NCBI GenBank assembly: GCA_009697505.1
Contig: SHUD01000005.1
Location: 1-64,000, forward strand
Length of the DNA: 64,000 bases
Direction: 5' to 3'
From: Bryobacterales bacterium
Lineage (GTDB): Bacteria; Acidobacteriota; Terriglobia; Bryobacterales; Bryobacteraceae
This document shows positions 9,201 to 63,542 of the stretch, piece by piece. The notes beneath the pieces were generated by a model that worked only from the letters and a program-made list of their open reading frames with translations, was not told the DNA's origin and ran no database searches. A program made the position numbers and the translations under genes. Position 1 is the first letter of the stretch, and the number at the start of each line of letters is the position of its first letter.

Positions 9201-10997
9201 ATGAAAAAACCAAGGGAGAATGCCATGAAACAACCGATGAAGAAAGTTTTCCGGATGACCGCGCTGCTTGCCAGCCTGGCCTCGCTAGGGCATGCCCAGA
9301 CGCCCGTGCCGAGGCCACCGGGAGTGGTGCGGAACTTCATTCCGTTGACCGAACAGGCCATTAAGGCTCCCAAGCCTTCCGACTGGGTGATCCATCGCGG
9401 CAATTATCAGGCCTGGGGCTACAGCCCGCTGGACCAGATCAACAAGACCAACGTCAAGAATCTGCAACTGGTCTGGTCACGCAGCATGGACGCCGGCACC
9501 AACGAGTCCACTCCGCTGGTCTACAACGGCGTGATGTATATCGGGAATCCGGGCGACACCGTGCAGGCCATTGACGCGGCCACCGGCGACCTCATCTGGG
9601 AATACCGGCACCAGGCGCCTGAGATCACCGGGTTTCGCAACGGCCTGGGTCAGCGCAAGCGCAGCATCGCACTCTACGACGACCGTGTGTATATGGTGTC
9701 CTGGGACAATCAGGTGGTCTCGCTGGACGCCCGCACTGGTGAGGTGGCGTGGAAAACCAATCGCGGCGGCGCCCCGCTGGTCAGCAACTCCAGCGGACCT
9801 ATTGTGGCCAGTGGCGTGGTCATAGCGGGCAGCACCTGCCAGTACTCGGCCGAGGGTTGTTACGTCACCGGTCACGACGCCAAGACCGGCCGTGAGCTGT
9901 GGCGCAATGAGATGATTCCGCACCCTGGGCAGCCCGGGGATGAAACGTGGGCCGGTGCTCCGTTCGAGAAGCGCTGGATGACCGGCGTCTGGGGCCAGAT
10001 CACGTACGATCCCGAACTGGATCTGGTGTACTACGGGTCCACCGGCGTCGGACCGGCCTCCGAAGCCCAGCGCGGGATGCCCGGCGCGACCATGGCCGGC
10101 ACCAACACGCGCTTCGCGATCCGGCCCAAGACCGGCCAGGTCGTCTGGAAGCACCAGGTGCTGCCGCGCGATAACTGGGATCAGGAATGCACCTTTGAGA
10201 TGATGATCATCAACACGCCGGTGAATCCCAGCGCGCCGGACTTCCTGGCGGTGAATCCCAACGCGCGCCGTGGGCCGCGCAAGACGCTGACCGGCGTCCC
10301 GTGCAAGACCGGAATCGCCTGGAGCTTCGACGCCGCCACCGGCGAGTTCCTGTGGGCCAAGGCGACCACGCAGCAGAACCTGGTTTCCAAGATCGACCCC
10401 AAGGGGCTGGTCACGGTGAACGAGGACGTGGTGCTCAAGGAGGTCGACAAGACCTATAGTATTTGTCCAACCTACAACGGAGGCCGCGACTGGCCGCAAG
10501 GCGCGTACAACCCGAAAACCAACGTGATGTACATACCGCTATCGAATCTGTGTATAGACACGACGGCGCGCACGGATCGCAACGCCATACCGCAGTACGC
10601 CTACAACACGAACAATGTCGCCAAATTCCCAGCGGGCAAGGATAAGGTGGGGCGCATCGATGCGATTTCAGTGGAAACCGGCAAAACGCTATGGACCTGG
10701 GAGACGCGCGTGACCAACTACTCGCCGGTCCTGGCGACCGGCAGCGGGCTGCTGTTCAACGGTGGAATCGACCGTTATCTGCGGGCGCTGGATGCCGACA
10801 AGGGCCAGGTGGTGTGGCAGACGCGGCTGCCTTCGCAGGTCGCTGCCGGCGCCGTGACCTATTCCATCAACGGCCGCCAATACATTGCCGTCGCCGCAGG
10901 TGGCGGGGCGATCGCCAACACCGGCTTGAGCCTCACGCCCGAAGCGGATGCTCCGGGCGGCAACAACGCCATTTACGTTTTCGCGCTGCCGCAATAA
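9201..10997 (+). CDS. PQQ-dependent dehydrogenase
   Basis: 'NYQAWGYSPLDQINKTNVKNLQLVWSRSM', 'RDNWDQECTFEMMI', C-terminal PQQ-DH motifs; start may be 9225. Confidence 0.88.
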   Translation: MKKPRENAMKQPMKKVFRMTALLASLASLGHAQTPVPRPPGVVRNFIPLTEQAIKAPKPSDWVIHRGNYQAWGYSPLDQINKTNVKNLQLVWSRSMDAGTNESTPLVYNGVMYIGNPGDTVQAIDAATGDLIWEYRHQAPEITGFRNGLGQRKRSIALYDDRVYMVSWDNQVVSLDARTGEVAWKTNRGGAPLVSNSSGPIVASGVVIAGSTCQYSAEGCYVTGHDAKTGRELWRNEMIPHPGQPGDETWAGAPFEKRWMTGVWGQITYDPELDLVYYGSTGVGPASEAQRGMPGATMAGTNTRFAIRPKTGQVVWKHQVLPRDNWDQECTFEMMIINTPVNPSAPDFLAVNPNARRGPRKTLTGVPCKTGIAWSFDAATGEFLWAKATTQQNLVSKIDPKGLVTVNEDVVLKEVDKTYSICPTYNGGRDWPQGAYNPKTNVMYIPLSNLCIDTTARTDRNAIPQYAYNTNNVAKFPAGKDKVGRIDAISVETGKTLWTWETRVTNYSPVLATGSGLLFNGGIDRYLRALDADKGQVVWQTRLPSQVAAGAVTYSINGRQYIAVAAGGGAIANTGLSLTPEADAPGGNNAIYVFALPQ

Positions 10998-13536: not shown

Positions 13537-13588
13537 TGCGCCATCTGCGCCATCTGCGCCATCTGCGCCATCTGCGCCATCTGCGCCA
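13537..13588. repeat. Tandem repeat, 9-bp unit TGCGCCATC, ~5.8 copies
   Basis: Read directly from sequence. Confidence 0.95.
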
Positions 13589-13695: not shown

Positions 13696-13794
13696 GGTGG
13701 CGGGGCGATCGCCAACACTGGCTTGAGCCTCACACCCGAAGCGGATGCTCCGGGCGGCAACAACGCCATCTACGTTTTCGCGCTGCCGCAATAG
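13696..13794 (+). pseudogene. Fragment of PQQ-dehydrogenase 3' end (duplicate of 10899-10997)
   Basis: ~99 bp with about four mismatches; both copies end at the stop codon (TAA vs TAG). Confidence 0.9.
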
Positions 13795-22338: not shown

Positions 22339-22447
22339 GGTGGAGCGGGCTTTAGCCTGCCACGGTGGCTTTAGCCACCGCGAAGTGCGGGATCAGCTAA
22401 AGATCGGGGACTGAAGTCCCCGTTGCAGGCTAAAGCCTACTCCACCC
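22339..22447. repeat. Nested palindromic intergenic repeat, copy A
   Basis: Outer arms GTGGAGCGGGCTTTAGCCTGC / GCAGGCTAAAGCCTACTCCAC; inner palindromes GGTGGCTTTAGCCACC and GGGGACTGAAGTCCCC. Confidence 0.9.
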
Positions 22448-62234: not shown

Positions 62235-62317
62235 TCTTCTAGGGTAGATGCTGGAGGCGCTCTAGATCATTTGCCTGATCGAAGCCCGTGCGCGCGGCAC
62301 GCATAATTGAGATATCT

Positions 62318-62602
62318 ATGTACAGCAGGCACCGGAAACACTCCCCTCTGCCGGGCGGTTTCTTCCACCTGGAAGAAGAGAAGACGCGCACCCGGGTTAC
62401 CGGCCATGGCTACGGCGACAACATCAGGCTCAAGGATGACTACGGCAATGTCTGGCAGGGCCGAGCCGAGCGCATGGACGATGCGACTGTGATCTACCGT
62501 TTTCGCGACGGCAATGGGCGCTCCCTGAGCGGCGTTTCCGATAGCACCGCAATCACGTTGCTCGACGACAAGGGCTGTACCTGGAAAGGTTTTATCGATT
62601 AG
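62318..62602 (+). CDS. Hypothetical protein
   Basis: ORF with internal ATG at 62318; no recognised family. Confidence 0.45.
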   Translation: MYSRHRKHSPLPGGFFHLEEEKTRTRVTGHGYGDNIRLKDDYGNVWQGRAERMDDATVIYRFRDGNGRSLSGVSDSTAITLLDDKGCTWKGFID

Positions 62603-62668
62603 CGCAGGGCTTTATTGACTAGCCTGCATTTCGCACACGAGATTGCTTACGGAGGAGCAGATCCCAAC

Positions 62669-62774
62669 GTGGAGCGGGCTTTAGCCTGCGACGGGGACTT
62701 GAGTCCCCGGTTCGAAGTGTGGTTATACCGCTGCGGAGGCTGAAGCCTCCGTTGCAGGCTAAAGCCCGCTCCAC
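62669..62774. repeat. Nested palindromic intergenic repeat, copy B
   Basis: Outer arms GTGGAGCGGGCTTTAGCCTGC / GCAGGCTAAAGCCCGCTCCAC; inner palindromes GGGGACTTGAGTCCCC and GGAGGCTGAAGCCTCC. Confidence 0.93.
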
Positions 62775-62843
62775 GCTGGGCCCCGGTATGGCTCTTTCTG
62801 ATCTACCTTGGGACGTTGTGAGAAATGCAGGCTAGCGCCCGGC

Positions 62844-63542
62844 CTAGCTGAGTTGCACCAGGATTTGTTGGGCTGCCTTCTGGCCGGCGCTTTTCTTGGA
62901 AAGTCCCTGGGCCTGGCTCACCCAGTCCTTACCCACGCGTACCTCGACGGTAAAGGTCTTGGCGTGCTCCGGCCCTTCTTCAGCCACAACACTGTAACGC
63001 GGAGGAGGCAACTTCAGCGACTGCGCCGTTTCCTGCAGCGCGCTCTTGTGATCGGTGGAGGCCGTCGTCTCGATCTCTTCCAGTGGATCATAGGGTTCGA
63101 TGACGTGGGCCTTGATGAACTGGCGAGCCGCTTCGAGTCCGGCATCCAGATACAGGGCCGCGATCAGAGCCTCCAGCGCGTCGGAGAGCAGGGCCTTCTT
63201 CATGCGCCCTCCGCTCAGTTCCTCGCCGCGGCCGAGCAACAGGTAATCTCCCAAGTTCAGCGATTGCGCGACCTCATGGAGGTGAGCGGCGCTGACCAGA
63301 CGGGCCTTCAGCTTGGACAGCCGGCCTTCGGGATACGTGGAAAAGCGCCGGACCAGAAACTCGCTGACGGCGAAGCCCAGGATGGCGTCGCCCAGGAATT
63401 CCAGGCGTTCATTGTCGGTGGCGCTGCCGTCGCCGGGCTTTTCATATGCCCGCGATTTATGGGTGAGCGCGCGGCCCAACAGTTCCCGGTCTTGAAACCC
63501 GTGCCCCAGTACCCGCTCGAGGCCCGCCAGATCCGCGCTCAT
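62844..63542 (-). CDS. rnc: Ribonuclease III
   Basis: 'NERLEFLGDAILGFAVSEFL'; C-terminal dsRBD. Confidence 0.95.
   Translation of the reverse strand: MSADLAGLERVLGHGFQDRELLGRALTHKSRAYEKPGDGSATDNERLEFLGDAILGFAVSEFLVRRFSTYPEGRLSKLKARLVSAAHLHEVAQSLNLGDYLLLGRGEELSGGRMKKALLSDALEALIAALYLDAGLEAARQFIKAHVIEPYDPLEEIETTASTDHKSALQETAQSLKLPPPRYSVVAEEGPEHAKTFTVEVRVGKDWVSQAQGLSKKSAGQKAAQQILVQLS

Follow-up and report, generated by a model that had tools for sequence, protein, structure and literature searches.

The DNA analysed here (the window) is a stretch of 64,000 nucleotides from one contig of the 2.56-Mb, 65% complete draft genome of a Bryobacterales bacterium. Near its right end, two convergent genes are separated by a nested set of inverted repeats, the innermost part of which had been described in a sequence-only reading as copy B of a repeat first seen at 22340 (copy A). 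The coordinates of copy B, its inner modules (GGGGACTTGAGTCCCC at 62693-62708 and GGAGGCTGAAGCCTCC at 62735-62750), its placement between convergent genes and the perfect complementarity of its outer arms, 21 nt at each end, were all confirmed. That reading had addressed the core only, however, and a larger element of 217 bp, with 19-bp terminal inverted repeats of its own, had been overlooked. The features of the locus, together with copy A, are as follows.

22340..22445, no strand assigned: copy A, a free REPIN with REPs at 22340-22380 (+) and 22405-22445 (-), without terminal repeats
62288..62602, + strand: left neighbour, a small open reading frame, conserved in the nearest relative and without a Pfam match
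62619..62835, + strand: whole non-autonomous element, read here as a MITE, 217 bp including one CTAG per end; based on the 19-bp inverted termini, copy number and an empty orthologous site
62619..62637, + strand: left terminal inverted repeat, CTAGCCTGCATTTCGCACA, 95% complementary to 62817-62835; near-identical ends occur on intact IS1380 elements of relatives
62619..62622, no strand assigned: left CTAG of the 4-bp target duplication; based on YTAR ends in all copies and on the empty-site comparison
62669..62709, + strand: REP 1, 41 nt; a GTGG tag, a GCGGGC-TTTA-GCCTGC stem, then a CGGGGAC-TTGA-GTCCCCG hairpin
62710..62733, no strand assigned: spacer between the REPs, 24 nt, containing a small hairpin
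62734..62774, - strand: REP 2, inverted; its inner hairpin on the + strand is CGGAGGCTGAAGCCTCCG
62817..62835, - strand: right terminal inverted repeat, 19 bp, pairing with the left repeat
62832..62835, no strand assigned: right CTAG of the 4-bp target duplication, on the same basis as the left
62844..63542, - strand: rnc, convergent with the left neighbour and encoding ribonuclease III (RNase III and dsRNA-binding domains)

The core at 62669-62774 is a REPIN, composed of two inverted 41-nt REPs that together form one hairpin and that belong to the GTRG-tagged type associated with REP-associated tyrosine transposases (RAYTs). Specifically, the predicted fold of 62660-62784 reaches -89.5 kcal/mol (z = -10.7), a value that none of 200 shuffled sequences equalled, and the word forming the outer arms is found at 22340, 22428, 62669 and 62757, as compared to 0.03 matches in all for shuffled sequence. 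The element falls within no curated family, an Rfam search of the window having matched only a tRNA. Such REPs are abundant, with 113 in a genome of the same genus (G003) and 55 in G000, and the tag preceding the GCRGGC-TTYA-GCCTGC stem in 63 distinct REPs is GTGG, or GTAG in two, as collected with a search pattern that was itself biased toward GTGG. Moreover, in two genomes of the same genus, Y1 transposase genes are flanked by this same REP as an inverted pair (G019:C199 and G003:C52), and the G019 protein passes the NCBIfam model for REP-associated tyrosine transposases. In G003:C52, the RAYT of this family has as its neighbour another Y1 transposase gene (L197:1350-2048), which is itself flanked by REP clusters of a different type.

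Copies A and B are 77% identical over the core only, and no match to the terminal repeats was found near copy A. The proposal that A and B are two copies of one element was rejected on the grounds that A has no outer repeats; because only B lies within the 217-bp element, the two sit in different mobile layers. Several further core-only matches occur in the genome, and the three free copies that could be placed all lie between called genes. Two further repeats were also observed in the window, a tandem repeat of a 9-bp unit (TGCGCCATC) at 13537-13588 and a 98-nt direct repeat of 97% identity, the copies of which (10899-10996 and 13696-13793) are 2.8 kb apart.

The inner stems of A and B differ by compensatory changes, as had been noted, and this holds true over the REP family as a whole. 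Among the 63 distinct REPs, a set consisting mostly of free copies but including both REPs of the 217-bp element, two-sided changes were found in 9 of 13 pairs, amounting to 85 cells as compared to 15.8 after shuffling; none of 500 shuffles scored as high, and controls in which the pairing was slid gave values of 1-11. That REPINs undergo compensatory change had been reported before (PMC3116915). The earlier suggestion that pairing rather than sequence is preserved thus stands for the free REPs but not for the amplified element, in that the REPIN helices of 19 copies of the 217-bp element contain not a single two-sided change. Nor does the covariation prove selection, since compensatory changes of this kind may also stem from repair templated by the opposite arm. 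Taken together, these data carry a caution of general use: covariation among repeat copies can come from mixed layers, and the compensatory changes seen here are those of REPINs, not those of the element that was amplified.

The same reading had proposed a mobile or structured element, and both descriptions apply, the REPIN being enclosed in a terminal-inverted-repeat element of which approximately 26 copies or fragments are present in the draft genome, 19 of them with both ends. Several contigs terminate inside the element, and for this reason, as well as the incompleteness of the draft, the true copy number is probably higher. Intact copies are mostly 95-100% identical to copy B, and the 19 two-ended copies align from end to end with a mean column identity of 95%, those parts outside the REPIN being conserved as well as the REPIN itself, while parts of the hairpin are deleted in several copies. 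YTAR is present at both ends of all 19. The 4-mers at the two ends are identical in 13 (7.8 expected by shuffling, P = 0.006) and unequal in the remaining 6. The element has no coding capacity, and two contig ends considered as possible autonomous copies (C69 and C15) were rejected, as only ordinary genes extend up to the break. Elsewhere in the same genome, the same terminal repeats surround a different core (C35:11983-12167 and C22:55333-55538). The inner-flank sequence had no match in a scan of 84,980 species genomes, from which records of the source genome itself were possibly excluded, and the REPIN composite therefore looks private to this lineage.

Direct comparison with the nearest relative (G002) revealed an empty site. 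In that genome the element is absent between the same two genes, the flanks are 79-84% identical, and the joined flanks align without a gap at the point of insertion when a single CTAG is retained, as a 4-bp duplication would predict; it should be considered in reading this comparison that the relative is only about 80-84% identical. IS1380 genes of the same relative adjoin the same end, and are cut at contig breaks. Additionally, a genome of the same order (G048) carries two intact 1.73-kb IS1380 elements that are 97% alike, that have ends nearly those of the 217-bp element and that are bordered by target duplications of CTAA/CTAA and CTAG/CTAG. The assignment of the transposase to IS1380 rests on a score of 384.8 bits, the cut-off being 180. 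Beyond its first 18 bp, the 217-bp element has inner flanks that match none of the IS1380 elements seen here, and the only IS1380 of another genome (G061) is without these ends. In G048:C121 (L188:233-369), an IS1380 copy adjoins part of an element that bears the same terminal repeat, in what looks like a nested insertion.

The two layers observed at the locus, together with the copy number, the empty site, the pattern of ends and duplications, the matching IS1380 elements and the linkage of RAYT genes to these REPs in relatives, point to 62619-62835 as a composite miniature transposable element in which a REPIN is carried within an IS1380-type MITE, a reading to which we assign a probability of roughly 0.85. 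The outer layer consists of 19-bp terminal inverted repeats resembling those that bound IS1380-family insertion sequences of related genomes, and an IS1380 transposase acting in trans would most likely move the 217-bp element into YTAR sites, duplicating 4 bp. The core is a REPIN, its two inverted, GTGG-tagged REPs belonging to a family whose cognate enzyme is a REP-associated tyrosine transposase. The REPIN presumably came between IS1380-type ends at some stage, after which the entire 217-bp unit would have multiplied in the lineage. The identity of the transposase now moving the element, the route by which the REPIN entered and its status as a passenger are what we infer from these observations. 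Neither a PF13701 (IS1380) transposase, one of which is present in the nearest relative, nor a RAYT or other Y1 transposase gene was found in the source draft genome; since that draft is 65% complete and several of its contigs end inside the element, the absence of both genes counts only weakly against mobilisation.

The nesting has probably arisen at least twice, because a second composite holds a different REPIN. Specifically, in a metagenome-assembled genome of Candidatus Solibacter sp. Chersky.3_40 (L295:6603-6798), a REPIN that includes GTGGCGCAGGC-ACTCAT-GCCTGC lies within the same terminal repeats and folds with z = -14.0; this genome also contains many free copies of its own REPIN and parts of two more composites. 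The same ends are found far more widely on elements of approximately 182-184 bp (for example L227:2411-2594 and, in the present genome, the two elements on C35 and C22), present on at least 120 contig stretches, including those of two isolates, in Alpha-, Beta-, Gamma- and Deltaproteobacteria, Acidobacteriota, Gemmatimonadota, Planctomycetota and Verrucomicrobiota. These elements are nearly constant in length, match no Rfam family and share a consensus rod-like structure, in which 30 of 50 pairs have two-sided changes across 24 of them (188 cells as compared to 67 after shuffling). No description of this structured element, conserved across phyla, was found. Elements with these ends may need, or profit from, a hairpin-forming core that is itself exchangeable, such that REPINs replaced the rod-like core both here and in Ca. 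Solibacter; we put this forward tentatively, as a rather doubtful extension of the main reading. The composite makes the role of a hairpin core in transposition directly testable.

This wide distribution bears upon the possibility that some other transposase recognises the same ends and moves the element, IS1380 merely sharing those ends. Such ends are found on elements in at least six phyla; of the 10 genomes with such elements that were tested, most of them from other phyla, 8 yielded no PF13701 protein, so that IS1380 is not supported as the mobiliser there and another enzyme could be at work. Within the order to which the present genome belongs, however, intact IS1380 elements have almost identical ends and likewise produce YTAR duplications, and between such ends no other transposase was encountered as the native content. 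One candidate, a 1.6-kb pair of terminal inverted repeats in G050 (L126, G050:C13:33312-34941), was set aside as an autonomous element, its IS110-type transposase gene having apparently inserted into a 184-bp element. For the element at this locus we therefore regard a different mobiliser as unlikely.

A further alternative, that the locus is a structured bidirectional terminator or a stabiliser of 3' ends maintained by selection between convergent genes, follows from the function suggested in the sequence-only reading, and we consider it quite improbable. The hairpin is indeed very stable, and a role in terminating or protecting transcripts has been proposed for REPs in other settings (PMC3733652), but no U-tract follows the stem at copy B and a terminator scan did not rise above chance, which leaves a canonical bidirectional terminator unsupported. 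Compensatory change, as described above, is lacking from the REPIN helices of the 19 copies, several copies have lost parts of the hairpin, and the nearest relative does without the element at the same site. A bias toward convergent placement was nonetheless found: of the 20 copies that could be scored with a rough gene caller, 11 have convergent neighbours, 6 co-directional and 2 divergent ones, and 1 overlaps a called open reading frame, as compared to 11 convergent, 43 co-directional and 10 divergent arrangements among the 64 neighbouring gene pairs of the window. This bias is explained at least as well by the targeting of YTAR, many sites of which are stop codons, combined with the removal of harmful insertions. 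Ten of 21 copies end at the stop codon of a neighbour, and 24-32% of the YTAR or CTAG sites that lie outside gene interiors in the window overlap stops. If the 3' ends of the two convergent transcripts are affected at all, this is most likely incidental to the presence of the long hairpin. It is a matter of pure speculation that this hairpin, which would fall in the 3' end of the rnc transcript, is a possible substrate for RNase III.

Finally, that a RAYT alone dispersed the REPIN, the outer inverted repeat being nothing but a target palindrome, is most improbable: REP dimers within long palindromes have been reported from A. variabilis and H. neapolitanus (PMC3733652), and free REPINs of this family exist in the genome and the genus, but the 217-bp unit recurs nearly unchanged over its full length at approximately 26 unrelated places, its non-REPIN parts are as conserved as the remainder, and the same terminal repeats enclose quite different cores within one genome.

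The composite reading thus places the element among several known systems, each of which it resembles in part. The element joins a DDE insertion sequence to the domesticated HUH system of the RAYTs, two mobile systems without relation to each other, and this small composite is multiplied as a whole; mobile elements of either kind are known singly, and the nested form of a REPIN within a MITE seems to be undescribed, literature searches on the end sequence and on IS1380 with CTAG duplications having returned no description. With IS1380-family MITEs it shares terminal repeats almost identical to those on the IS1380 elements of this order, the 4-bp YTAR duplication and the lack of coding capacity, but its core is a REPIN derived from the unrelated HUH system rather than an internally deleted IS1380. 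With the REPIN, or RAYT-associated REP doublet (Bertels and Rainey 2011, PMC3116915), it shares inverted GTRG-tagged REPs, GTAG-tagged forms of which have been described (Di Nocera 2013, PMC3733652), as well as a short spacer, compensatory changes in the stems and REP-flanked RAYT genes in relatives. It differs in that each 41-nt REP contains a second hairpin, and in that the REPIN of copy B is carried in a larger element, the copies of which vary in a manner unlike that of free REPINs. The REP dimers of A. variabilis and H. neapolitanus likewise lie regularly within one longer palindrome; there, however, the outer palindrome was interpreted as target or associated sequence, whereas in the present element the outer part shows terminal repeats and target duplications, and insertion sequences that match it are known from relatives.
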